Virus record (IMG/VR): IMGVR_UViG_3300032287_001270
Coordinates: 1 to 44,455 of that record
Direction: 5' to 3' (one strand)
Length of the DNA stretch: 44,455 nt
From: a virus
The position numbers and the translations under genes are program-made. Positions within the stretch are counted from its first letter, which is position 1; each line of letters begins with the position of its first letter. The notes under the pieces are model-generated. The model had not been told where the DNA came from, searched no databases, and was given only the letters and a program-made list of their open reading frames with translations. Below, piece by piece: positions 5,795 through 32,611 of the stretch.

Positions 5795-8700
5795 ATGCCT
5801 CAAGCTGTCCCGTTACCAGATGGTAGATATGTAGCAATACGAGATGGGGAGACCCCAGAGCAGGCATACGCCCGAGCGCAGCAGATGTACCCCGAAGCAT
5901 TTGCGCAAAAACAAGCAGCCGCGCCAACAGCAACTACGTTTGGTGGGCAGACCAAAGAATTCTTTAAAGGGCTTGTGCCCGGCGCTATTGGGCTTGTTGA
6001 ACAGGCCGGTACTGGTATATCAGCACTGCTTCCAGAAGAACAAGAGAAAGCTACCCAAAAATATATCAAAGAAACTGCTGCCGCAGCCAAGGCTCCTTTT
6101 GCCGCTGCGCCGGGGTACGAGGACACGGTGGGGCGTAAATTTGGTGAAGCCGCAGGTTCAATAGCGCCGTTTCTTGCCACTGGGCCGTTTGGTCTGGCTG
6201 GGCGTGTAGCTGGATACGGTCTTGGTATTGGCGCTGGCGCTGGCACACAGGTAGAGAAATCTGCCGCTGAAGGTGCAACTGAAGGTCAACAAACTGCCGC
6301 TACTGCGCTGGGTGCCGTGGTCGGCGCATCAGAGATGTTTGCCCCTGCACGTATTCTAAAACGTCTTGGGGAGCCTGTAATTGAGGGGGCTACGTCGTAT
6401 GTTAAACGTGCGCTGATGGCTGGCGGCGAGGAAGCCGCACAAGAAGCCGCGTCTCAAGCAGCGCAGAACATCATCACCAAAGGCATATACAAACCTGAGC
6501 AACAAATTATTGAACAGGTTGGTGAGTCTGCCGCCTACGGCGGTGCAGTCGGTGCGTTGGCACAAGGACTTTTGGACTTGGCTATTGGCCGTCGTGCACC
6601 AAAACCTGTGCTTACAGACGAGGTAAAGCAAGCCCGTGAAGAAGCGGCTGTGCAGGCAGAACAGGAAAAAGCACGCCTGAACAGCCCTGAGTACGCACAG
6701 GGATTATTCCAACAAACACAAGACTTGGAAGCCCAGCGTAGAGCACTCAAAGCGCAGTTAATCCCGATAAAGAAAGGCGAATCCCCAGAAACGGATTACG
6801 CAAACAATCGAGAAATTAACCGCCAGATAGAAGCCTTAAACAAAGAACTTAAGCCGCTGGCTGATGAGTATGTGCGTGTCAAACCTATTCTAAAACAAGC
6901 GGCAGAACAGGAACGTGTTGCCAAACTAACCCCACAAGAGTATGCGTTGGGTATTGAGCCAGAGCAAGTTGCGCCACAAGCGCAGGCTGAGCCTCGCATG
7001 TACTACGACCAAGAGGTTGTGCCGCCTCAGGAGCCGAAGGCGGAGGATGCTGCGGAGCGATATGCCGCTGAGAGTGTTCAGTTAGCCAATGATCAACGCC
7101 TTGCCAGTGAGAAAGGCCCCAACGATGCGGTTGCTGACTACGTCTCGTACTTGATGCGCAACCCCAACTTGGCTGAGGAAATTGAAAAGAGCCGGATGCA
7201 GTTGCCCGGTTTGCCCACTGGTGTACGTAGTGCCGCCGTGCTGGATGCGTTGAAGTTACAGCTTGCGCCTATGCGCAAACAAAAAGCAGCAGCCGAAAAA
7301 GCTTCTTTTGAGCAGGAGATGGGCACGCGGCAAACAGCGTTTGGTGCCACTAAGCCGGAAAAAGAATCTTCATATGTGCAGGCGTTTACTTCGTACATGG
7401 ATGACATCAAGAGCCAGCGTGATGACGTTGGTGATGACATGTTCTTCAAGTACATAGTCGATCCAAAGCTGGAAAAGATAAGTGAGGGTAAACCCCCAGT
7501 CATAGCGGTGAATCCTCAGTTGATGCCGTTTGCACAACCCAAACAGGCAGAGCGCACACGTACCAAAATTAACGAGTTGATTGACCAAGTCGATACCGCT
7601 CAAGAAGAACGTGATGCTGCTTTGCGCTCAAACAACCGTGACGCTGCAACTGCTGCGTTTGAAAGAGGGAACCAAGCGCTTGAACAACTTAACTCGCTTG
7701 TTGTAGAAACACCTGCTGGAGAACTGACAAAAGGGCGCTTCCCCAGCGCTAAAACAAGCCCACAAGCAAACATTTACGCCCAAGAAGTACTGCGTGTACG
7801 GAACGAACAAAACACCGCTTTAAACACAATTGAAGACAAGCTTGACCGTTTGCGCCGTGGTGATGCTTTAGGTAAAGAGAATGTAGAACCCGGCAAAGGT
7901 GTGGCGGCTGCTACTCCCAATGTGTTGGCCAAACAAGCTGAAGAGGCACGAGGCAAGTATATCTCTGCTGTGTTGGAAGAAGCCGCCATTCATCGCCGTG
8001 TTGCAGGTAAGCCTGCACTAACTTATGCCGAAGCTATCAAAGCCTCGTCGCGCATCCATGATGTGGTGGGTGAGTGGTTAAGCCGCGCACGAGCTGTGCC
8101 TAAAAAACCTGAGTTTGAAGAAGTTATAGTGCAGCCCGCTCAGATGCGGGCAAACAAAATTATCCGTGGTGCTGTTACCAAACGTGTTTTGAAGACTCGT
8201 GATCTGAGTACAATTCCACTAAATGATTTTGCACGCTTGAGCGATAAGGAAGTTAAGCATTTTAAAGCGCAGATTGCCAAAGTTGTTGATGGCTTGTCCG
8301 AAATGCCATCACAGGTTTCACGTGAAACACCGATATTGAAACAGCAGTTTGCCAGCACTGAAGCACAGAAAGTTGCGGAAGCCCGAGGCGAGACAGCCAA
8401 GACACTGGCTGGAGAACTGCGCCGTCGCACAGAGTTTGTGCGCAACTTGATGGCTAAGCCGCCTCTCAAGCCGTTGACAGAAGAAACCCGCAAAGCTTTA
8501 AACTTGAAACTGCTTGATCGCGCCGTTGACATTATGGACAGCGGCAAAGCCTCACGCGGTTTGTTGGACGCTGTTGAACCTATTGTTACAAACTTGGCTG
8601 AAGGCCGTGAGATTCTTCCCCAAGATATACGGGCGCTTGATGATGCCATAAAGCTGTATGAAAGTACAGCCCAAGAGGGTGAGATTGCTGGTGAAGGTGC

Positions 8701-11700
8701 GGCTGGTCAAGGTCAGTTGTTCCCTGAGACACGCAAAGACATTGGTTACATCCGCGCTACTCCTGCCAACTTTGCCAAGTCACCACAGATTAAGCCTGTG
8801 TGGGAAGCGCTGGAGCAAGCACGCAAGCTCAAAGCAAAAATAGAAGCCAACCAGAAAGCACGTTCTGCTAGAGACAAACAAGGTATGGTGCAGATCAAAG
8901 CGTTGCAAGATCAAATTGATGCTATCAAAAATAACATGAAGTTTTTTCTGACTAAATCAGGAGACTTTAATTTAGGGTTGTACACAAACGTAGACATTGC
9001 AAAAATGTTTGTGCCGTACCCTGAGGCGGGGGTTACAAAAGAAGATAAAGCGTTGATGGATCAGTACTTGGCCGTTGTACGAAACATTTTTAATCAAAAC
9101 TACAACCCGTCCATAAAACAAACACTTGAGCAGTCGCTTGAAAGCAACTCAAGATTAGCTAGAAAAATATATCAAGGGTTGTCTGCGGTTTTTAAACCCG
9201 AACAAATAACTTATGTTTATGACAAGTTGCTTCCGGACTTTAATAAAAATATAAGACCTGAATACCTTATACGTCTTAAAGAAGCGCAACAAGCTGTGGC
9301 TTTGGGGCAGCGCCTTGAAAGTGCAAACAACCGTTTGGTTGAGTTTATGCAAGACAGTAACGCTGTTGTGCGTAAACAAGCTGAAGAGAGCTACAAACTT
9401 ACCGAACCACTACTGGACAAACTAAAACTTATCAAACAGAGTTTGCGTGGTGCCGCATTGTTGTCTGACGGAGAACGAGCCGCGCTTGCTTCTGAAACAA
9501 AGTTGGCTGCGCAACGTACTGCGTATAAAGACGCTATGGCCAAGGCAATGGGCAAAGCCCGTCAACGCTTGTCTGATACGTTGGGCGAATTGCTTGATCC
9601 TGAGATTGAACGCGCACGCCGTGCTTTGAAAGCGGCCAAGACACGTTTGGCTACAGTTGAGTCGCAGATTGAAGCGGCTACGAAAGAAATGACTGAGGGT
9701 ACTGGTCAAGCGCCAAACCTAATTAGTAATTTGCAAAAAGTACAAGGGCTTGTTGAGAGCATTGAAAGCGCTGAAACAGAACTAAACGAGTTGCAAGAGT
9801 TGCGCTTTGACGAAATTGAAAACGATGTCGTTGTCACCGAAGCCATGCTTGACAAAGACCTCAAGACAGAACGCGAGTATCTAGAAATACTTGAGCGGCA
9901 ACTGGCAGACATGCGCAAGGAGCCATTGACTGCTGTAGAACTTGGAGAACGCGGCAAGCTGGGCAAACTCAAATACCCCTTCTCTGCGCAGCGCGTAGAG
10001 TCGCAAGTAAAGGCACAACAAGCGGCTGTTGATGAAGCCGAGAAGCGTGCAAACGAATTCCAGAAAGATGTGCAAGTCTGGTGGCCTAAGGTTACTGCTG
10101 CGTTTAAGAAAGAAGGCGTCAAGCTTAAAGATTTGCCCGGCGCAGTGTTTGAGAAAGGCCGCAAGGTTGCGGAGATCAATACGCCTGAACAAAGACGCCT
10201 TGATGAGTTGCGTGATAAAGGTATGCAGGCGGCAAAAGAAGTTGATGAAGCCGCCGTACTTCAAGCAGTTAAAGACAAGCAGATTCAGTTGTTTGATGAC
10301 GAGATCTTTGACGCACGCGGTGAAGTGCAATCGTTCATGGGGCCAGAAAACATGGATCAGTTGGCCGACATCATGGCCGACCCCAAGACTACCAACATCA
10401 AACGTGTACAGGCTACGCTCAAGCTGGGCGCTATGCAGAAGCTGGCTTCGTTGGAAGCGCAAAAAGAAGTGTTCCTTACAGGCAAGCCAGCCAAAGCACC
10501 CAAGGCAGCTACTGTGCCGAGCACCACTGCGTTGGCGGCGGCTAAGCCGTTCCGTACTGGGTCAGGCGTAGCTAAAGCATTTACGCCCGCAGAGATGGAT
10601 GAAATGGCGCGTGCTGACATACGCGACGCTAATGAGTTGGCCAAAAAGATTCTTGGTACAAAAGCGCCGCAGTTGAAAGAACCAAGCAAACGCAAGCAGG
10701 GCAAAATGCCTGACCCTAATATGGGGTTGTTTGACGATTTTGAGTTTTCTCGTGGCACACCGGTAAAAGGCTTGACCAAAGCCGAGTTGGAAGCCGAGCT
10801 TACCGCCGGTATGGGTGAACCTATTACTGGGCGTAAAGTAGAAAAACAAATTGCCGACAAGTTGGCAGTGTATGAAAACCTTGACGAGTACCTGAATCAG
10901 TTCAAAGACGCTACACGCCAAAAGTTAGAAAGCCAGATTCCAGCAGACGCCAAAGGTTTTGTACAAAACGGCAAAGCTGTGCTGTTTGCCAACAACATTG
11001 GTAAAGGCCACGGACTGGGCGTACTGCTTCACGAAGTTGGTGTGCACTTGGGATTCCGCAACTTCTTTAACGAAGGTCAGTACAACGCGTTAGTTAAGAC
11101 AATCAAAAACTGGGCAAACAAAACTGAAGACTCAATGGAAGCGCGTGTTGGTAAAGCCGCCATGCGTAGGGTTGAAGCCGCTGAAACACCTGAAAATCAG
11201 ATTGACGATGAGTTGTTGGCTTACGCTGTTGAAGAAGCCATGCAGATGGGCGTAGAGCCTGTTGGTGTTAAAGGTGGCAACGCAGTCAAGAACTGGTTGA
11301 AGATGGTGGTGGATGCGTTTAAAAAAGCGCTTGAGAAGTTTGGCATCACTACTTCCAACTTAACTGCTGGAGATTTGGTTAACTTTGCTTATGGCGCAGC
11401 CCACCTTGAACTTAAAGGAACTTGGCACGGCACAGGCGTTAAGTTTGATGAGTTTGACCACGCATACATGAGTTCTGGAGAAGGCCATCAGGCATTTGGT
11501 TTTGGTACGTATCGCGCACAAAGGTTTGGAACTGCGGACTATTACCGTGATGTTGCGCAAGGCGTACAACTTAAAAACTGGTTAGAGCGGCCTGACGTGA
11601 AAGCGTGGAGAGCAAGTCAAAGGCCGGAACTAGTACGTAAAGCTCCGGATGTTGTCCCTGACTGGATGCTTGAAAACGCAATAGAAGAAGCGGCAAACGC

Positions 11701-14700
11701 TTATGCCGGTATTTCTCCACATACCATGTTCAAAGATTCTATTGAAAGCCAAATAAAAGATCTGCAAGAGTTGCGCAAAGACTCAAACATGCAAGATGTG
11801 GGTTTTGGTATTCAGACGGACAAAGAGTTTAAAGACACTGTCGAAAAGCTCAAAGCATTTGCAAAAGATGCGGGGTCGTACATAGATGCGCCTTTTGATA
11901 AACCTTTGTATAAAGGTGAACAATCATATAGTTTGTACGACACAAACCCCGCAGCGCACAGTGCTTTAACAAAGTTTGAAATGGTTTTGGCAAAAGATGA
12001 AACGCCATCTTTTAAAGAAATAATTGCAGAAGTAAAAGCGGATGCCGCAGACATAATGAAAGTGTTTGAAAGGGCTTCAGATAATCCAAGTAATAATTTT
12101 GTTTATGAGCGTTACAAACAAATCTACGAAGGTGTAGACAAGCTTAGCTTAGACAACTTTAAGTACCGCCTAGCATCTGGCCCACCTGTACCACAGCCTG
12201 TTGGTTACATGCTACGTACGTTGCACACACGTCCAGAGAACGAGTACATCCATTGGGACGGCCAAGCAGACAAACAACCAGCGGCTGTTAGAGATGTGTT
12301 CAAGCGTATCTACGATTCTTTAGACAGAACACAAAGACAAAACTTTGATCGTTCAATTGGCATCTCTCCAACTGACCGGCAGAATGGGCAACAGTTATAT
12401 GAAGCATTAAGCGCCGTCCTTGAAAAAGGTGGTATGCCTAGCGAACTCTCTGACCGATTTGCGTCTGAACTGTTGCACGCTGAAGGTGTTGCAGGTATTA
12501 AGTTTTTTGATAACCGTTCCAGAATTAAAAAAGAAGGTACGTTTAACTACGTTGACTTTGGCGACAAGGAAGAAGGTGCGCAAATCATTGCCACTGACAT
12601 CAGCCCCGTCAACGCCACAAAGCCCATGCAAAAAGGCGAGATGCTGTTCTCGCGTTCAGCAGAATACACTAACCCGGAGATTGCCAAGCGTAGCGGTTTT
12701 GTTGACAAGATTGTGGCCAAAGATAAAAGTTGGACGCAGAAGCTTAAAGCCAATTTGACTGGTCTGGCTTTTGAGACACAGCTTGTGGACAGGTTTGCAG
12801 GCTTCGAGCGTTTGGCCAAATACATGGAGCCGCTTAAAGGCACTCAGATGTTGTACTACCTGCGCATGTACGACCAGCGCATGAACTTTGTATCTCAGGC
12901 AGTCTCCAACGGCGCACCAGCAATCGTGGAGAAGACGCGCCCAGACGGACGTGTTGAGCGTGTGTTGGAAAGTAAAGAGAGCGCTAACATTAACAACGTG
13001 GTGCAGATTCTAAGAGACGCACAACCAATGGTTGGCAATGCAGAAGCCGTAAACACAATGTTTACCTTGTACATGGCGGCCATCCGCGCAGATAACAAAG
13101 GGTTGGCTTCACTAAACTTTGGTGAAGACGTTACGCAAGAATTGTTGAACGACACCATGTCCGCTATCAAGGCCACGCCCGGCTTAGAAGCTGTGTTTAA
13201 AAATGCACAAGCCGAGTACAACGAGTACAACCGCAACTTGATTGATTTTGTTGTCAGCACTGGCGCACTGTCCAAAGAAGTTGGTAAACGTTTGCTTAGA
13301 GAAAACGATTACATCCCGTTTTATCGTGAACGCAACGGCGTAGCCGAACTGTTAATTGGTGGTGAGTCCCCCATCCGTATTGGTAGTATTGCCGAACAGC
13401 CGTACCTGCATGAACTTGTTGGTGGCGACAGACCTATCCTTGACTTCATGACAAGCTCGGTGCAAAACACCAACCTGTTGATGGATATGGGTATGCGTAA
13501 CTTGGCCACCAAGAACGCGGTGTTTGAACTGGTGGACTTGAAGGCTGCTAAGTTTGTAAAGATGGCTGCTGGCCCTGACGTTGTTAAATTCCGCGATGAT
13601 GGCGCAGATCGTTACGCTGTGATTGCTACCGAGAAGGTCAAGATTGGTAACAAGGAGTTTGATACTGGCGTACCTGCTGACATACTTGTCAAAGGCATGG
13701 AGGGCATTCCAACACAGATGCCAGCAATGTTGCGCGTCATGGCTTTCCCAGCACAGGTATTACGCAAAGCTATTACCCTCAGCCCTTTGTACACAGCAAA
13801 GCAGTTGTTCCGTGACTCCTTGGCCGCGCCTATTCTTTCTGGCGCAGACTTTATGCCTGTCATTGGTGCGTTGAAAGAAATCAACTCCGCTACCAAAAAG
13901 ACTCTTGAACGCCGTGGTGTTACCGGAGGCCAGCAGTTTGTGGGGGGCGCTGAGGACTTGACCAAGATTCTGCGTGATGTGTCTGAAGGTAAGCCGGGCT
14001 GGATGACCGCGCTTGGCAAGCTTGAAGCTATGAGCATGGAGGCCGATGCTGCAACACGTCGTGCGCAGTACAACAGCTACGTTGAGCAAGGCCTGTCCGA
14101 GATGGAGGCAACACTGCTGGCGCTGGAGTCCATGAACTTTAACAAGCGCGGCGCGTCCCCCTCAGTGCATATGGCTAACTCGTTGATACCTTTCTTTAAT
14201 GCACAGATTCAAGGTTTGAACGTGTTGTACAAAGCGTCGATGGGTAAGATGCCGTTCAATGACCAGTTGCGTATTCGTGAAAAGATGCTGCGACGTGGAG
14301 CCTTTATGGCTGTGGCCAGCCTTGCCTATGCCGCATTGATGCAGGACGACGAAGCGTATAAGAACGCTAACCCTGACCAGAAATATGGCAACTGGTTTGT
14401 GCGAGTGCCGGGTCTGGACGAGCCTATCAAAGTACCTGTGCCTTTTGAAATTGGCTACATCTTCAAGGCGTTGCCTGAGGCAATACTTAACAGCATGGTC
14501 AACGAGAATGGTGGTGAGGAAGCAGTTAAAGCTTTCAAACAAATCTTGCTCCAGACAATCCCCGGCGGTTCGTCGTATGGCATCCCACAAATAATGAAAC
14601 CTGCCATCGAGGCAGGACTCGGCAAGTCGTTCTACACAGGTAGGGACATCCTGTCTGCGCGAGAGAAAGAACTGTTGCCCGAAGAGCAGTTCCGCACCAA

Positions 14701-15241
14701 CACATCTGAGTTGGCTAAAGTTATTGGTAAAACGCTGGGCATTTCCCCTATTGTGTTTGAGCAACTTGTCAGCGGTTACACCGGTGCAATGGGGTTGGCG
14801 TTCATGCACGCATTGAGTGTGGGCATACCCACAGGTGAGACTCCTGAGAAAGCCGTTAAGCGTTTGTCAGAATACCCAATCCTTGGCGGTGCGTTCCAGC
14901 CCAACGATGCTGGCGGCATAGTCAACAGCGTGTATGAGCGCATGAACGAGAACCTCAAAATTAAATCTACGTTCGACAAGCTGGTAGGAGAAGGCCGCAT
15001 GTCAGACGCCAAGGAGTTGCTCCAACGTCGCGGCAATGAGTACATGCAAGCCGAGTTGGCAAACAGTTTTAAAAACGACATGAACCAACTGACTCAGGCA
15101 GAACGTGCCATCAGCGCTTCAAAAATGTCACCGGAAGAAAAGCGTGCACAGCTTGACAAGATCAGGAAGATAAAGACCGCTGTTGCTCAAACTGTGAGAG
15201 ATGTTTCCGATAAAACCATACTCCTAGCATCCCCTTTCTGA
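5795..15241 (+). CDS. Giant polyvalent ejection-type protein (3148 aa)
   Basis: 3148 residues, about one fifth of the window. The N-terminus (LPDGRYVAIRDGETPEQA) resembles the start of many internal virion proteins. Residues ~60-270 are Gly/Ala-rich and hydrophobic (e.g. GYGLGIGAGAGT), suited to membrane interaction. Residues ~280-1500 are long charged helices. A zincin-like site HEVGVH lies at 1746-1751 with a downstream ELLAYAVEEA helix. From ~1870 to 2270 it matches the ADP-ribosyltransferase domain of phage polyvalent proteins: WHGTG at 1877, FGFGTY ending at Tyr1906, GIKFFDNRSR at 2234. Residues ~2630-2950 (NFNKRGASPS, PFFNAQIQG) resemble large polyvalent-protein-associated domain LPD38. 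Such proteins are thought to be packaged and injected with the DNA to counter host functions. Domain names are from memory, not from a search. Confidence 0.75.
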   Translation: MPQAVPLPDGRYVAIRDGETPEQAYARAQQMYPEAFAQKQAAAPTATTFGGQTKEFFKGLVPGAIGLVEQAGTGISALLPEEQEKATQKYIKETAAAAKAPFAAAPGYEDTVGRKFGEAAGSIAPFLATGPFGLAGRVAGYGLGIGAGAGTQVEKSAAEGATEGQQTAATALGAVVGASEMFAPARILKRLGEPVIEGATSYVKRALMAGGEEAAQEAASQAAQNIITKGIYKPEQQIIEQVGESAAYGGAVGALAQGLLDLAIGRRAPKPVLTDEVKQAREEAAVQAEQEKARLNSPEYAQGLFQQTQDLEAQRRALKAQLIPIKKGESPETDYANNREINRQIEALNKELKPLADEYVRVKPILKQAAEQERVAKLTPQEYALGIEPEQVAPQAQAEPRMYYDQEVVPPQEPKAEDAAERYAAESVQLANDQRLASEKGPNDAVADYVSYLMRNPNLAEEIEKSRMQLPGLPTGVRSAAVLDALKLQLAPMRKQKAAAEKASFEQEMGTRQTAFGATKPEKESSYVQAFTSYMDDIKSQRDDVGDDMFFKYIVDPKLEKISEGKPPVIAVNPQLMPFAQPKQAERTRTKINELIDQVDTAQEERDAALRSNNRDAATAAFERGNQALEQLNSLVVETPAGELTKGRFPSAKTSPQANIYAQEVLRVRNEQNTALNTIEDKLDRLRRGDALGKENVEPGKGVAAATPNVLAKQAEEARGKYISAVLEEAAIHRRVAGKPALTYAEAIKASSRIHDVVGEWLSRARAVPKKPEFEEVIVQPAQMRANKIIRGAVTKRVLKTRDLSTIPLNDFARLSDKEVKHFKAQIAKVVDGLSEMPSQVSRETPILKQQFASTEAQKVAEARGETAKTLAGELRRRTEFVRNLMAKPPLKPLTEETRKALNLKLLDRAVDIMDSGKASRGLLDAVEPIVTNLAEGREILPQDIRALDDAIKLYESTAQEGEIAGEGAAGQGQLFPETRKDIGYIRATPANFAKSPQIKPVWEALEQARKLKAKIEANQKARSARDKQGMVQIKALQDQIDAIKNNMKFFLTKSGDFNLGLYTNVDIAKMFVPYPEAGVTKEDKALMDQYLAVVRNIFNQNYNPSIKQTLEQSLESNSRLARKIYQGLSAVFKPEQITYVYDKLLPDFNKNIRPEYLIRLKEAQQAVALGQRLESANNRLVEFMQDSNAVVRKQAEESYKLTEPLLDKLKLIKQSLRGAALLSDGERAALASETKLAAQRTAYKDAMAKAMGKARQRLSDTLGELLDPEIERARRALKAAKTRLATVESQIEAATKEMTEGTGQAPNLISNLQKVQGLVESIESAETELNELQELRFDEIENDVVVTEAMLDKDLKTEREYLEILERQLADMRKEPLTAVELGERGKLGKLKYPFSAQRVESQVKAQQAAVDEAEKRANEFQKDVQVWWPKVTAAFKKEGVKLKDLPGAVFEKGRKVAEINTPEQRRLDELRDKGMQAAKEVDEAAVLQAVKDKQIQLFDDEIFDARGEVQSFMGPENMDQLADIMADPKTTNIKRVQATLKLGAMQKLASLEAQKEVFLTGKPAKAPKAATVPSTTALAAAKPFRTGSGVAKAFTPAEMDEMARADIRDANELAKKILGTKAPQLKEPSKRKQGKMPDPNMGLFDDFEFSRGTPVKGLTKAELEAELTAGMGEPITGRKVEKQIADKLAVYENLDEYLNQFKDATRQKLESQIPADAKGFVQNGKAVLFANNIGKGHGLGVLLHEVGVHLGFRNFFNEGQYNALVKTIKNWANKTEDSMEARVGKAAMRRVEAAETPENQIDDELLAYAVEEAMQMGVEPVGVKGGNAVKNWLKMVVDAFKKALEKFGITTSNLTAGDLVNFAYGAAHLELKGTWHGTGVKFDEFDHAYMSSGEGHQAFGFGTYRAQRFGTADYYRDVAQGVQLKNWLERPDVKAWRASQRPELVRKAPDVVPDWMLENAIEEAANAYAGISPHTMFKDSIESQIKDLQELRKDSNMQDVGFGIQTDKEFKDTVEKLKAFAKDAGSYIDAPFDKPLYKGEQSYSLYDTNPAAHSALTKFEMVLAKDETPSFKEIIAEVKADAADIMKVFERASDNPSNNFVYERYKQIYEGVDKLSLDNFKYRLASGPPVPQPVGYMLRTLHTRPENEYIHWDGQADKQPAAVRDVFKRIYDSLDRTQRQNFDRSIGISPTDRQNGQQLYEALSAVLEKGGMPSELSDRFASELLHAEGVAGIKFFDNRSRIKKEGTFNYVDFGDKEEGAQIIATDISPVNATKPMQKGEMLFSRSAEYTNPEIAKRSGFVDKIVAKDKSWTQKLKANLTGLAFETQLVDRFAGFERLAKYMEPLKGTQMLYYLRMYDQRMNFVSQAVSNGAPAIVEKTRPDGRVERVLESKESANINNVVQILRDAQPMVGNAEAVNTMFTLYMAAIRADNKGLASLNFGEDVTQELLNDTMSAIKATPGLEAVFKNAQAEYNEYNRNLIDFVVSTGALSKEVGKRLLRENDYIPFYRERNGVAELLIGGESPIRIGSIAEQPYLHELVGGDRPILDFMTSSVQNTNLLMDMGMRNLATKNAVFELVDLKAAKFVKMAAGPDVVKFRDDGADRYAVIATEKVKIGNKEFDTGVPADILVKGMEGIPTQMPAMLRVMAFPAQVLRKAITLSPLYTAKQLFRDSLAAPILSGADFMPVIGALKEINSATKKTLERRGVTGGQQFVGGAEDLTKILRDVSEGKPGWMTALGKLEAMSMEADAATRRAQYNSYVEQGLSEMEATLLALESMNFNKRGASPSVHMANSLIPFFNAQIQGLNVLYKASMGKMPFNDQLRIREKMLRRGAFMAVASLAYAALMQDDEAYKNANPDQKYGNWFVRVPGLDEPIKVPVPFEIGYIFKALPEAILNSMVNENGGEEAVKAFKQILLQTIPGGSSYGIPQIMKPAIEAGLGKSFYTGRDILSAREKELLPEEQFRTNTSELAKVIGKTLGISPIVFEQLVSGYTGAMGLAFMHALSVGIPTGETPEKAVKRLSEYPILGGAFQPNDAGGIVNSVYERMNENLKIKSTFDKLVGEGRMSDAKELLQRRGNEYMQAELANSFKNDMNQLTQAERAISASKMSPEEKRAQLDKIRKIKTAVAQTVRDVSDKTILLASPF

Positions 15242-27823: not shown

Positions 27824-28321
27824 TCAACCTCCGAAGTATGTGTGTAGCTCTCTGTACAAGGCGTGCGCCTGCTTCAAGCCGATGTTGTTGATGACTGTCT
27901 CAACATCCCACGCAGTCTTCACCATAGGCTGCGGACTGAGAGCGGCGATGCCCTCGCCTCGTGTGGTTTTGGCTTTCTCTATGACTTGCGTGGCTTTGAT
28001 TTGCTTGCGTACCTTTATGGGTGAGTACTCGTTGACTATCGTCGTGTAGTTGCCGTTTGCATCCCTCATGCACAACCCATTCTTAACAAACTGCGTGAGC
28101 AGTGAGCCAATAGATGACGGCTTGTATCCCTGCTTCTCCAACGCCGCACAGATGGTCTTGCACGACTGGTGCGGGTTGTTCTTCACGAAGTCGAATGTTG
28201 CTCGTGTTACGTTGTTGCTAACTTTAAAATGTGGTACGTGTTTCACTTTTTTCTCCTGTTGTTGATTATCTAGCTCCCATTCGCTGAGTATTCCAGTCAG
28301 CGCAGTTTTTATATCAGGCAT
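27824..28321 (-). CDS. Winged-helix DNA-binding-like protein
   Basis: 165 residues, SD GAGGAGGG before ATG. Residues ~38-95 form a winged-helix-like unit: VTRATFDFVKNNP, TICAALEKQGYKPSSIGSLL, then a hydrophobic helix and a hairpin (LCMRDANGNYTT). The C-terminus WDVETVINNIGLKQAHALY is also a recurrent phage motif. It lies just after the AAA+/VWA/DUF3150 genes in the same unit. It may bind DNA and regulate phage genes; this is inference. Confidence 0.6.
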   Translation of the reverse strand: MPDIKTALTGILSEWELDNQQQEKKVKHVPHFKVSNNVTRATFDFVKNNPHQSCKTICAALEKQGYKPSSIGSLLTQFVKNGLCMRDANGNYTTIVNEYSPIKVRKQIKATQVIEKAKTTRGEGIAALSPQPMVKTAWDVETVINNIGLKQAHALYRELHTYFGG

Positions 28322-28336: not shown

Positions 28337-29215
28337 TTAGAAATTAAACTTGTCGAGTATTGCATCGACATTCTTCTTGACATCCTGTCGGATGGTCTCG
28401 TCTTTACGCAACTCGCTAGGAGTCACGCCTACCAACAACTGCTCAAGCTCACGCCGCGCTGTCTCCAACGCAGGGTCATTGGTAATGTTGAGTGACTTAG
28501 CTAAGTCACACATCTCTAGCGCGCCATCGACAAGGGTGTCGTGGAAGCGTCGAGTCTTAGCCTCACCCTGCACATAGTCAGTAGTAAGTCTGTCAGAGAT
28601 ACGCTTGAGTCGTTCACCCAGTCGAGCACGAACATCTGCCATAGCGTAGTCGATGCGTTCCTGAGTTAGTGACTCAAGCTTAGCCTTGAGTTCTTCCTGC
28701 GCCTTGTTGCCCACATCCACGCGGAAGTCACCCGCTGTCGGTACGGGCATGTAGTTGACGCGGAATGAGAACTTGGTAACCAAGTCGTTGGGGGTTGGGA
28801 AGTCATCTCGTCTAAACATATCACCGAGAGCCATAGCCTGTGCTGTGATGAGCGATGGGTAGATGGTGATGAATGCCTTGACCAATGCGGCAATCTCCTC
28901 ATCGAACTCGTTCATGCGTTCAGCAAACTTGATGAAGCGCGTGTTGGGTAACAAGCGCAGACCCGAGTCAGACCAAGGCGATGTGTTGTCGTACACATAC
29001 TGACGAGCACGACCGACTGCCTGTTGGATGACCTCCAACTCTGTGCGACCTGCAAGCAAGTGCTTGTTGACACGCGCCGCATCCTTGGCGGCGTTCTTGT
29101 TTGATGTGACCTCATCGGTCGTGGACTTGTCGAGCTTGCGAGCCGTCCACACAGAGGCGTTGAATTCCACCAGCATTGCACAGGTGTCGATGTTGAAGCG
29201 AGGTGTTGTGTTCAT
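28337..29215 (-). CDS. DUF3150-like protein
   Basis: 292 residues, SD GGAG with the spacer TATTCAAT. The protein is helical and charged throughout, with ARKLDKSTTDEV near the start and SPWSDSGLRLLPN near residue 80. This matches my memory of DUF3150, a phage family usually coded beside a MoxR-like ATPase and a VWA protein, as here. No catalytic site is visible. It is likely the third subunit or substrate of that ATPase module; what it does is unknown. Confidence 0.65.
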   Translation of the reverse strand: MNTTPRFNIDTCAMLVEFNASVWTARKLDKSTTDEVTSNKNAAKDAARVNKHLLAGRTELEVIQQAVGRARQYVYDNTSPWSDSGLRLLPNTRFIKFAERMNEFDEEIAALVKAFITIYPSLITAQAMALGDMFRRDDFPTPNDLVTKFSFRVNYMPVPTAGDFRVDVGNKAQEELKAKLESLTQERIDYAMADVRARLGERLKRISDRLTTDYVQGEAKTRRFHDTLVDGALEMCDLAKSLNITNDPALETARRELEQLLVGVTPSELRKDETIRQDVKKNVDAILDKFNF

Positions 29216-29237
29216 ATTGAATACTCCTTTTAGTTAC

Positions 29238-30362
29238 TTACTTGGTTGAGAAAAAGATTTTGTGTTCAGCCAACATCTTGCCGAAGTCGGACAAGGTGAT
29301 GAACAAGTCCACACGCTGAGATGTAGCCACGGTGTTGCAGAAGATTGACTGCATCTCTGCACGCATACGCCACACATATGTGACGATTGCTTCTGCTTCT
29401 GTTCTATCCTTGGCACGCGATACGAACTGGAAGACTTGAATCAACTGAGCAGTAGGGTTGGTAGACAAAGGTGCAGTCTTGGGGTCTTTGATGACACGCG
29501 CATAGTCACAAATCTCACGACCAAAGCGCACGAACGATGCCAACGCCTCAGCAGTAGTGTGACCCACAGTACCAATCAATGCTTGCTCAATGGTTGTGTC
29601 GTCGAGTATGCCAAGACCCTCATCCAAGATGTCACCAGCGGCGGCAAGTGAACGAGGCGTTGCGTATGCTTGCTGTGTTGACTTGGGATTGAATGGGAAG
29701 CCGTTGTCCTTGGACATGTCCTTGCCCTCGTATGCACCACCCTTCTCGTAGTCAAGGAACGATGCCATGACGCGAGGCTCGTTGGATACAAACGCGATGA
29801 CCATAGGATTGATACCGGCATCGGTTGCCCACTTGACCCACTCTTCAGCGGTAGGCTTACGCATCTTCACGAACACAAGACGATTACGCAAGTGTGCTTG
29901 GATGGAGTCACCGAGACCCTCGATTGAAAGATTGGTAGCGGCAAAGATAACGCTACCCTCAACGAAGTGGAAGTTGCCAACGCGTTGCTCGTAGACGATA
30001 GGCGCAAGCACATTCTTGATGAACTGCGGTGCCTTGGCTATCTCATCTAAGAACGCGATGATTGGCTTACTGCCATTGACGCCACGCTGATTGAACTTGC
30101 TGACACCGAAGCGTTCGTTGGGAAGCTCGCGAGAGATGCCGTTCTCGCGGTCAAGGTCAGGCATCCATACAGAACCATCGGACAACTGAGTGCAGTCGAT
30201 GGGGTCAACGGCAATGTGATTGGCGAACTTGGGCATACGCTTGAGTTGATGGAACAACGCGGTCTTGCCGATGCCGTTCTCGCCCTCGACGATTACTGTA
30301 CGCTTGTGACCCACAGCGGCGATGAGGTTGATGACTTGAGAAGAAGAAAGATATTGATTCAT
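29238..30362 (-). CDS. MoxR-like AAA+ ATPase
   Basis: 374 residues, SD cassette GGAGTAATCAAC before ATG. Walker A GENGIGKT (27-34), Walker B IIAFLDEI (101-108), sensor-1 FAATN (about 140) and an arginine-finger-like HLRNRLVF (about 158) are all present, so it should be an active hexameric ATPase. It lacks HTH or protease domains. MoxR ATPases work with VWA proteins to remodel or mature protein complexes. Here the VWA/metallopeptidase gene lies directly upstream and a DUF3150 gene directly downstream, so the three probably act together. Confidence 0.85.
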   Translation of the reverse strand: MNQYLSSSQVINLIAAVGHKRTVIVEGENGIGKTALFHQLKRMPKFANHIAVDPIDCTQLSDGSVWMPDLDRENGISRELPNERFGVSKFNQRGVNGSKPIIAFLDEIAKAPQFIKNVLAPIVYEQRVGNFHFVEGSVIFAATNLSIEGLGDSIQAHLRNRLVFVKMRKPTAEEWVKWATDAGINPMVIAFVSNEPRVMASFLDYEKGGAYEGKDMSKDNGFPFNPKSTQQAYATPRSLAAAGDILDEGLGILDDTTIEQALIGTVGHTTAEALASFVRFGREICDYARVIKDPKTAPLSTNPTAQLIQVFQFVSRAKDRTEAEAIVTYVWRMRAEMQSIFCNTVATSQRVDLFITLSDFGKMLAEHKIFFSTK

Positions 30363-30387
30363 GTTGATTACTCCAAAGGTTGATTGA

Positions 30388-31581
30388 TTAAACAGAGATA
30401 CGAACTAACTTGCCGTGAGTGGGAACGAAGTCTTCGTTCTCCACCACACCCCACAGAGACGGCATTGGGGTATTCGGGGTATCGCAACCGAGGTAGCCGT
30501 CAGTCAGCCACACGATTGCTTTAGCATTGATTTTGTGGTGCAGTATGTAGTCAACAACTGCTTGCGGTGTAGTGCCGCCACCACCTTGAGGTTTGAGTAG
30601 TGTTGCAATCTGCTCGTAGTCAATAGGCTTGAACACTTGGTCACCGCACACCTCGTTGTCCCACCACAAGATACGAACAGCCTCGGGTCTTACTTGCGAG
30701 AGCATACGAGCAATCTCACCGAAGATGAGGCGATAGTATGGCGCCATCGAACCTGATGTATCGGGCGCAAGGATAAGCTCACCGACTGTCTCGTTGAAGT
30801 GCGATGGCATGATGTAGCCCGATGCAAGCATACGCTTGTTGGGAGGACAGAAGCGTGAGTTTTCGTCGCCACTACACACAGACACAAGCCAGTCCTGCAT
30901 AGCCTCGACATAGTTGGTTGTGCGTTCCTTAGCTGTGCCAAAGATGTCACGACCACCCTTGTTCTTACCTGCTAACTTACGCGCAAGCATCTCGCCTTGA
31001 CGATTGGCATCGTCAACATTCTTGCTGTGTTGTTGCTCGTCCTCTGCGTCATCGAACGCAGGGTCTTCATGCACATCGAGGGGTTCATCGAAGTCGTTGC
31101 CACCACCATTGCCATCCTTGTCAGGTTCTTTGCGACCTTGCTTGAGTAGGTCATTAAGAACTTGAGGGAATGACCAACCGAAATACTTGCGGTCAATACA
31201 CAGCGTATCAGTAGGTCTCTCAACGAATGTGAAGTTGGGGTCAAGCTCTTCGATGAGTGCGTTGACTACATAGTCCTGCGCGATGTTGGCAAGTCTTGGC
31301 ATTGCTTTGGTCTCTTTCCTGTACAGGATGCAATGCTTGAGTGCCACATGAAAGTTCTCATGCAGTACAAGGTAGCGCAGTTGCTTGCGGTTGAGTGGGG
31401 CGATAAATTCCTCGCCATACTTCTTGTCACGCCCATTGGTTGCGGCTGTGGGTGTGGTCTTTGAGACCTCTGACTTGCCCATACATATCACACCGCTGAG
31501 CAGTGCATATTGCGGGTGCCGCATACAGTCAATGTTCGCGGCTTGTATACGCTGGTTGAGCGTCATCTTCTCGAATGTCAT
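30388..31581 (-). CDS. VWA-domain protein with HEXXH zincin site
   Basis: 397 residues, SD GGAGAAGCAC before ATG. The N-terminal part has a zinc-protease motif LVLHENFHVALKH (HENFH at 74-78). A Gly/Asp/Glu-rich linker spans ~150-195. The C-terminal VWA-like domain has the metal-ion-dependent adhesion site DTSGS (274-278), GGGTTP (334-339) and WLTDGY (Asp361). This layout matches DUF2201-type proteins found next to MoxR ATPases. It may bind or cleave a target that the AAA+ protein presents. A promoter-like element lies 28 nt upstream. Confidence 0.85.
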   Translation of the reverse strand: MTFEKMTLNQRIQAANIDCMRHPQYALLSGVICMGKSEVSKTTPTAATNGRDKKYGEEFIAPLNRKQLRYLVLHENFHVALKHCILYRKETKAMPRLANIAQDYVVNALIEELDPNFTFVERPTDTLCIDRKYFGWSFPQVLNDLLKQGRKEPDKDGNGGGNDFDEPLDVHEDPAFDDAEDEQQHSKNVDDANRQGEMLARKLAGKNKGGRDIFGTAKERTTNYVEAMQDWLVSVCSGDENSRFCPPNKRMLASGYIMPSHFNETVGELILAPDTSGSMAPYYRLIFGEIARMLSQVRPEAVRILWWDNEVCGDQVFKPIDYEQIATLLKPQGGGGTTPQAVVDYILHHKINAKAIVWLTDGYLGCDTPNTPMPSLWGVVENEDFVPTHGKLVRISV

Positions 31582-31608: not shown

Positions 31609-31617
31609 ATTCTAACA
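31609..31617 (-). promoter_or_regulatory. Candidate extended -10 promoter of VWA/AAA+ module
   Basis: On the minus strand TG-T-TAGAAT forms an extended -10 element; no good -35 is seen. Just upstream GGTGTC/GACACC (31620-31640) forms a 6-bp hairpin. A start at about 31602 would leave a 20-nt leader before the VWA gene. It is similar in form to the TGTTATAAT element at 37860. Confidence 0.4.
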
Positions 31618-31648
31618 TAGGTGTCCAAGATTAGACACCCTCGGGTTT

Positions 31649-32611
31649 CTACCAACTCACATTACTGCGGGGGTAGTCTTTCTCCACAACGAATTGTGGA
31701 ATAGTCTGCTTGACGGATTTCTTTTCCAAGTCCAGCGCCTTGAGGATGCGGGTCGACACCGCTTTACGAATTTCCTCTGCGGTAATTTGCTTGTCCAGCT
31801 TCTCTATGCCATCGATGGGTGCGGTTGATTGCCAGACTGGGCGTAGTGTGAAGCCTCTCTGTTTGTATGCACGCTTGGATGCGAGCACATTGAACGCGTC
31901 CTGACACATCTCAAAGAAAGCGTGGATGTCAGCTGATGTAGCTGAGTCATTCGCAATCTTCTCGACGCACTTGCGGGAGTCGTAATCTGACACCGCACCG
32001 CCAGCCCAAGGACGCCCTAAGTTGTGAGAAACTGTAGCCTCAGCGGTGAACTCGGGCAGACGCATCTGCGCGAGCATGAGGTAGTTGTCGAACTTCTTGA
32101 GTATCTCTGCGCGTGCCGTCTTGTCCTCGTTGCCCGACACCATTCTGTGGTGAGATGTGTGGGATGACTTGGTTGTATCGAGCACGCCATCAACATACAT
32201 GAAGTCGGCGCTGAATCGCTCGTCCCCATCGTACATGAACGCCTTGTTGTACACAGGCGCAATCACCTCACCAACTTGTGAGTTCTCGACACGCCTCCAA
32301 CTGTCCTTGCCCAACACATAGTGCATGAAGTCCTTGCTTGTGATTGAGTTGTCACCCATGAACAAGCGGCGTTCGTGTTGCTTGCCGTCGACCATCGTTG
32401 GCTCGTAGTAGCGAGCCATAACTGTGTTGTACAGAACGACATCGAAGTGGTTTGCATACTTCACCACCCTGTAGTGGAAGTAGGTCTTGTAGAGTGGGCG
32501 TTGGTTCTCCATCCATCTCTTGCTACGGACTGCGCCGCGATGATTGAATACTGCCTGTGCTTCAGCATAGCTACGCACCCAAGGTAAAGCTCTGGTTGTG
32601 TTTCCGTACAT
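31649..32611 (-). CDS. Hypothetical protein upstream of VWA/AAA+ module
   Basis: 320 residues, SD cassette GGAGTAATCAAT before ATG. I do not recognise a characterised domain. The segment FDVVLYNTVMARYY followed by LFMGDNSITSKDF resembles a short phage family with the plan LYNT-x-V-x-Y-x-DG ... GGWxTxTT, but the match is by eye only. The rest is mixed alpha/beta with no catalytic motif and no membrane segment. It sits 67 nt before the VWA gene and may belong to that module. Confidence 0.5.
   Translation of the reverse strand: MYGNTTRALPWVRSYAEAQAVFNHRGAVRSKRWMENQRPLYKTYFHYRVVKYANHFDVVLYNTVMARYYEPTMVDGKQHERRLFMGDNSITSKDFMHYVLGKDSWRRVENSQVGEVIAPVYNKAFMYDGDERFSADFMYVDGVLDTTKSSHTSHHRMVSGNEDKTARAEILKKFDNYLMLAQMRLPEFTAEATVSHNLGRPWAGGAVSDYDSRKCVEKIANDSATSADIHAFFEMCQDAFNVLASKRAYKQRGFTLRPVWQSTAPIDGIEKLDKQITAEEIRKAVSTRILKALDLEKKSVKQTIPQFVVEKDYPRSNVSW

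Follow-up and report, generated by a model that had tools for sequence, protein, structure and literature searches.

A three-gene module of an AAA+ ATPase, a zincin-VWA protein and a DUF3150-like protein in a freshwater phage, with related trios on plasmids

A freshwater phage carries a module of three genes, which encode a zincin-VWA protein, an AAA+ ATPase probably of MoxR type and a DUF3150-like protein. The genes are inherited together in related phages, and homologous trios are present on plasmids. The best explanation, to which we assign a probability of about one half, is an ATP-driven ternary remodelling machine of mobile elements, encoded in the early region, with a target shared by phages and plasmids. 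The window, that is, the whole stretch of DNA analysed, is an IMG/VR virus record of 44,455 bases. The module is on its minus strand and starts with the zincin-VWA protein (30388-31581, 397 aa). The ATPase (29238-30362, 374 aa) follows after 25 bp, and the DUF3150-like protein (28337-29215, 292 aa, mostly helical) after another 22 bp. These three open reading frames with their coordinates, an HEXXH motif at residues 74-78 and a DTSGS motif at 274-278 of the first protein are all as a preliminary description of this DNA gave them.

The plus strand of the window bears late genes (terminase, portal, tail and ejection proteins). The leftward block encodes a primase-helicase, an SNF2 helicase, a PD-(D/E)XK exonuclease and PolA. 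The trio is located in this block of replication genes, on the strand opposite to the late genes. Many related contigs measure 54-66 kb, so the record is probably incomplete. The terminase is closest to those of phage DSL-LC04, Pelagibacter phages and the freshwater phages MinM2, Pag-Yong1 and Pra-JY27. A nucleotide search of phage records with the module region gave zero matches. The late block also contains a gene for a protein of 3,148 aa (5795-15241, plus strand), in which an LPD38 domain near the C-terminus is the only clear Pfam match. Its position in this block points to a giant protein of the polyvalent kind, which may be ejected.

The zincin-VWA protein matches two Pfam families above their cut-offs: DUF2201_N (PF13203) with 40.4 bits (cut-off 23.2) and DUF2201 (PF09967) with 39.8 bits (cut-off 26.4). 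It is homologous to N4 gp25 and to plasmid VWA-like proteins, and its relatives are found in 565 phage records. The zinc site is HENFH (residues 74-78, 31348-31362, minus strand), within a HExxHxxxxH pattern. The MIDAS of the VWA domain is DTSGS (residues 274-278, 30748-30762, minus strand). Residues D274, S276, S278, T337 and D361 of the MIDAS are invariant in alignment A2. Against solved structures, the protein gave a single marginal match. PHROG 1314 labels this family 'HNH endonuclease', and many phage records bear that name too; in Pfam, the protein has no HNH match.

The zinc site is not kept everywhere. HExxH is lost, with a MIDAS-like DxSxS retained, in the VWA homologues at L170 (6007-7293), L190-L193, L195 and L196. 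One Variovorax plasmid trio and several chromosomal pairs have lost the zincin site, so proteolysis is not always needed. Judged from these sequences, some lineages can do without the zincin site.

The ATPase matches phrog_1297 ('ATPase') with an E-value of 9e-40. Its Walker A motif GENGIGKT (residues 27-34, 30261-30284, minus strand) is conserved, with G27, G32 and K33 invariant in alignment A3. Conserved as well are the Walker B LDE at residues 105-107 and N144. No single AAA model of Pfam reached its cut-off (AAA_5 gave 17.3 bits, cut-off 22), and the matches among solved structures were to AAA+ proteins of other kinds only (midasin, Clp, PspF). By hhalign, the probability was 90.9% against CbbQ/CobS-like ATPases and 100%, over 324 columns, against the ATPases of the plasmid trios. 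The protein is thus a predicted AAA+ motor related to motors of the MoxR/CbbQ type. In a tree, the ATPases with a DUF3150 partner cluster: 2 label changes are needed, compared with 12.7 when labels are shuffled. A single clade of DUF3150-linked ATPases was not rejected (p-AU 0.35, several branches being long). The tree is compatible with one origin of the ternary module.

The third protein is harder to name. It scored 15.4 bits against Pfam DUF3150 (PF11348), below the cut-off of 24.9, and its direct profile probability against canonical DUF3150 was 21.9%. A homologue on a metagenome-assembled contig, 75% identical to it, reached 27.1 bits with the same cut-off. Through plasmid intermediates the link is closer: the third protein matches the plasmid DUF3150-like proteins with an hhalign probability of 100%, and these match canonical DUF3150 with 95.3%. 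It is also 27% identical to the DUF3150-annotated protein of Synechococcus phage MinM2. It may be a distant member of the family. We call it DUF3150-like, because its own score is below the cut-off and the link is made only through intermediates. When genome contigs were scanned with the DUF3150-like profile, it was found on three metagenome-assembled contigs only. The AF2 model of the protein was poor (pLDDT 51.5) and unfit for a structure search. Of the three identities in the preliminary description, the zincin-VWA protein is borne out by Pfam and the AAA+ ATPase by its motifs and phrog_1297, whereas the DUF3150 assignment is suggested through intermediates.

To examine linkage, we considered 85 distinct viral loci related to the window. 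The whole trio is carried by 74 of them, on one strand in 74/74, with a median span of 3.3 kb; the remaining 11 lack part of it close to the end of a contig, so that 74/74 refers to the loci where contig ends permit the test. HExxHxxxxH and DTSGS are both intact in 58 of 58 distinct phage-lineage zincin-VWA proteins. The loci are related to one another, and neither the linkage nor the motif counts are independent events. The preliminary description had proposed one co-inherited module and had named two outcomes against it, genes usually separate in relatives and HEXXH or MIDAS mostly lost; the genes proved to be linked and the sites kept. Two gene orders exist among the complete phage loci, VWA-ATPase-DUF3150 and ATPase-VWA-DUF3150. 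Therefore, co-residence is maintained while the order varies. The median identity to the window is 81% for the ATPase, 77% for the DUF3150-like protein, 72% for the VWA protein and 79% for PolA.

The module seems to have its own promoter. Comparative conservation predicts a promoter/operator at 31609-31638 (minus strand), formed by a palindrome GTGTC-N8-GACAC (31621-31638) and a -10 box TAGAAT (31609-31614). A possible promoter at 31609 had been suggested earlier; that position is the end of the -10 box, and the palindrome and box conserved across relatives support the suggestion. A generic sigma-70 scan did not list a promoter at 31609. In 78 loci, irrespective of which gene leads, the core palindrome TGTC-N8-GACA (31622-31637 in the window) stands no more than 170 bp upstream of the module, and a TATAAT-like box lies about 8 bp after it. 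Ten loci are without the palindrome: in five the contig cuts off the true first gene, and five have a near-match by eye.

Across 1.11 Mb of related loci, TGTC-N8-GACA has 109 copies, with 16 expected. Most copies that are not at the module mark one site 4.5-7 kb upstream of it in relatives. The window has exactly two copies (0.8 expected by chance), and the second is at the head of the leftward operon (38056-38071, minus strand). Because the palindrome is found in the window only at these two places, a single regulator serving the trio and the head of the leftward operon is suggested. A candidate DNA-binding regulator is encoded after the trio, at 27824-28321 (minus strand). This small protein of 165 aa has a conserved pattern that resembles a winged helix-turn-helix (by eye) and weak matches to MarR/activator PHROGs; nothing in Pfam was above cut-off. 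In most relatives its gene is behind the DUF3150-like gene. That this protein binds the palindrome is our guess.

On the other side of the promoter is the gene at 31649-32611 (minus strand), once proposed as a fourth member of the module. The palindrome and -10 box stand before the trio; therefore the trio is a separate unit and this gene is outside it. Its position upstream of the conserved promoter and its fast evolution (37% median identity) speak against it as a module gene, and it was not seen in the plasmid trios examined. Its AF2 model is confident (pLDDT 90.2). Nevertheless, the model had no convincing match in the PDB (best Foldseek E-value 0.44, best VIA Z 4.4). Its viral matches were mostly weak, including some DUF8033 proteins and one nameless protein at an E-value of 2.7e-4.

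The module is not restricted to phages. On 39 plasmids, mostly from Burkholderiales, there is a DUF3150-like gene akin to the one in MinM2, and a zincin-VWA gene adjoins it in 30 of the 30 plasmids among the matches listed. Four of the five plasmids examined (L162, L163, L164 and L170) have the trio in the order ATPase, DUF3150, VWA, with the ATPase immediately upstream. In the fifth, a Simplicispira plasmid, the ATPase is 3.6 kb from the DUF3150-like and VWA genes. The Burkholderiales/Rhodovastum plasmid trios have three proteins homologous to those of the window, with the ATPase and the DUF3150-like protein at an hhalign probability of 100%, but differ from it in gene order. The trios of L162 and L164 are downstream of PRTRC cassettes.

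Canonical DUF3150 was above the cut-off in 9 of 398 genomes from one phylum, and one of the nine is a phage-type metagenome-assembled contig. Its gene is located between a CbbQ/CobS-like ATPase and a CobT-like VWA protein in L183 and L185, and is followed by a VWA protein in L186 and L189. A DUF3150 gene is also found on 1,168 plasmids of the collection. One IncC plasmid has the order ATPase, hypothetical gene, ssb, bet, exonuclease, DUF3150, VWA. The trio of a Citrobacter plasmid comes after genes for RecT and an exonuclease. Neighbours of the plasmid modules include ssb, bet, exonuclease, RecT and toprim genes. Like the window, the IncC-type plasmid and genome modules combine an AAA+ ATPase (CbbQ/CobS-like), DUF3150 and a VWA protein. 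Unlike in the window, the VWA partners tested with Pfam are CobT-like or plain, without a zincin match, and in the IncC plasmid the ATPase is not next to DUF3150, with ssb, bet and exonuclease genes between them. Since it stands beside an ATPase and a VWA protein on phages, plasmids and genomes, DUF3150 is, by gene neighbourhood, a recurrent third partner of ATPase/VWA pairs, with two kinds of VWA partner.

Pairs of ATPase and zincin-VWA protein also exist without DUF3150. Two are near a DUF262 gene, on Synechocystis pSYSA and on a Sphaerotilus plasmid (L166 4964-11266; L168 4709-9623). The N4-like phages have the pair with no detectable DUF3150, so the third subunit is not universal. We compared candidate genes for a hidden DUF3150 in a Rhizobium phage (L226) and Kosakonia phage Kc283 by hhalign, and they gave no match. 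The neighbours of the pair in Erwinia phage SNUABM_47 and cyanophage S-TIM66 include genes annotated as structural. Because of this location, the pair may act on substrates that differ from phage to phage.

MoxR/VWA couples are remodelling chaperones. RavA-ViaA, NorQ-NorD and CbbQ-CbbO each join a MoxR-type ATPase and a VWA co-chaperone, as the module is predicted to do. To our knowledge, these systems have neither a zincin domain nor a DUF3150 partner. The VMAP ternary systems have VMAP as a third protein and the order VMAP-MoxR-vWA (PMC7159879). The module differs from them in gene order, and DUF3150 was the only match of its third protein. The ATPase/zincin-VWA pair in phages is already known. 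In group 2.2 jumbo phages, a MoxR and metallopeptidase-vWA pair was published, and a role in virion assembly was proposed (PMC7824862). Like the module, that pair consists of an ATPase and a VWA domain joined to a metallopeptidase domain on its N-terminal side; the publication mentions no DUF3150 partner, whereas the module of the window is a trio, in a replication region and also on plasmids. N4 gp24 and gp25 are core genes of N4-like phages (PMC4193335). They are a homologous and adjacent ATPase and zincin-VWA protein, with HELWH and DTSGS kept in N4, but no DUF3150-like gene was detected near them. On the other hand, the trio appears to be unreported, as do its distribution among phages and plasmids, the conserved operator and DUF3150 as a third partner. 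The literature searched, 5.39 million papers with subscription papers outside the search, gave no mention of DUF3150 by name, and nothing relevant on IncC plasmids with CobS/CobT or on recombination modules with VWA/AAA genes.

By analogy with the MoxR/VWA family, the AAA+ protein would form a hexameric ring. The VWA domain would dock on the ring and grip the substrate through the metal of its MIDAS, and the fused zincin domain might bind or cut part of that substrate. For NorQ/NorD, one study assigns the finger of the VWA protein to the pore of the ring, and contact with the substrate to the MIDAS (PMC9976466). The DUF3150-like protein would be a dedicated third subunit, probably an adaptor or a helical protein that selects or holds the substrate. 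The target would be something common to phages and plasmids rather than the virion alone, because the same trio is on conjugative plasmids, which make no virions. The likeliest target would be a protein complex on the DNA of the element itself, while this is established, replicated or recombined; in a variant of this reading, a host or restriction complex takes its place. The gene neighbours count for little towards a DNA-related target, since clusters of genes for replication and recombination are common to all mobile elements. The joint inheritance of the module, its retained metal and ATP motifs, its own conserved operator and the plasmid trio all speak for the ternary remodelling machine. 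Of the preliminary interpretation, then, the co-inherited module stands and the fourth gene finds no support, while remodelling of a protein complex is a prediction from knowledge of the family.

The published idea of virion assembly is a rival explanation, but a rather doubtful one. In that case, the ring and the zincin-VWA protein would help to fold, assemble or process a structural protein of the phage. The proposal for jumbo phages, the location of the pair beside structural-annotated genes in SNUABM_47 and S-TIM66 and its core status in N4-like phages are in its favour, and the jumbo and cyanophage pairs count against our preferred reading. However, the plasmids with the trio make no virions, and the trio of the window is among replication genes on the strand opposite to the late genes. 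Moreover, phages DSL-LC04 and HTVC027P, whose terminase (53% identity) and portal (42-44%) are homologous to those of the window phage, have none of the three module genes. A purely virion-assembly role is therefore unlikely.

Counter-defence or host take-over is a similarly doubtful explanation. The machine would strip, unfold or cut a complex with which the host attacks DNA that enters the cell, for example in restriction or as a nuclease. Phages and conjugative plasmids face common DNA defences, and the trio they share is, in the window, separate from the late genes and behind an operator of its own. A defence or membrane complex of the host is thus a possible target, given that conjugative plasmids have the trio too. 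Nevertheless, PADLOC gave no convincing match to known defence systems. The ATPase and the DUF3150-like protein equal PolA in conservation, which is not typical of proteins in an arms race; this suggests a conserved target and is mildly against such a race. Still less probable is a machine akin to CobS/CobT or NorQ/NorD, which would act like a metal chelatase or insert a cofactor and would activate a metalloenzyme of the element or the host. Canonical DUF3150 does neighbour CbbQ/CobS-like ATPases and CobT-like VWA proteins, and NorQ/NorD remodels its target, letting metal in (PMC9976466). Conversely, no CobN-like gene was seen among the large open reading frames scanned in the window, which may be a partial record, and the loci examined have no metalloenzyme that is found repeatedly next to the trio.

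A wider proposal, which we consider speculative and rather improbable, is that DUF3150 marks a general machine of mobile elements, from phages to conjugative plasmids, including those of IncC type. It would have an ATP-driven ring and a VWA grip, with a protease-like head in the zincin branch, and would dismantle a conserved host complex on incoming or replicating DNA. For DUF3150, a family of unknown function, the present analysis provides a consistent set of partners and a testable role. The occurrence of one trio on phages and conjugative plasmids argues against virion assembly as its general function, and points to a common need of mobile DNA.
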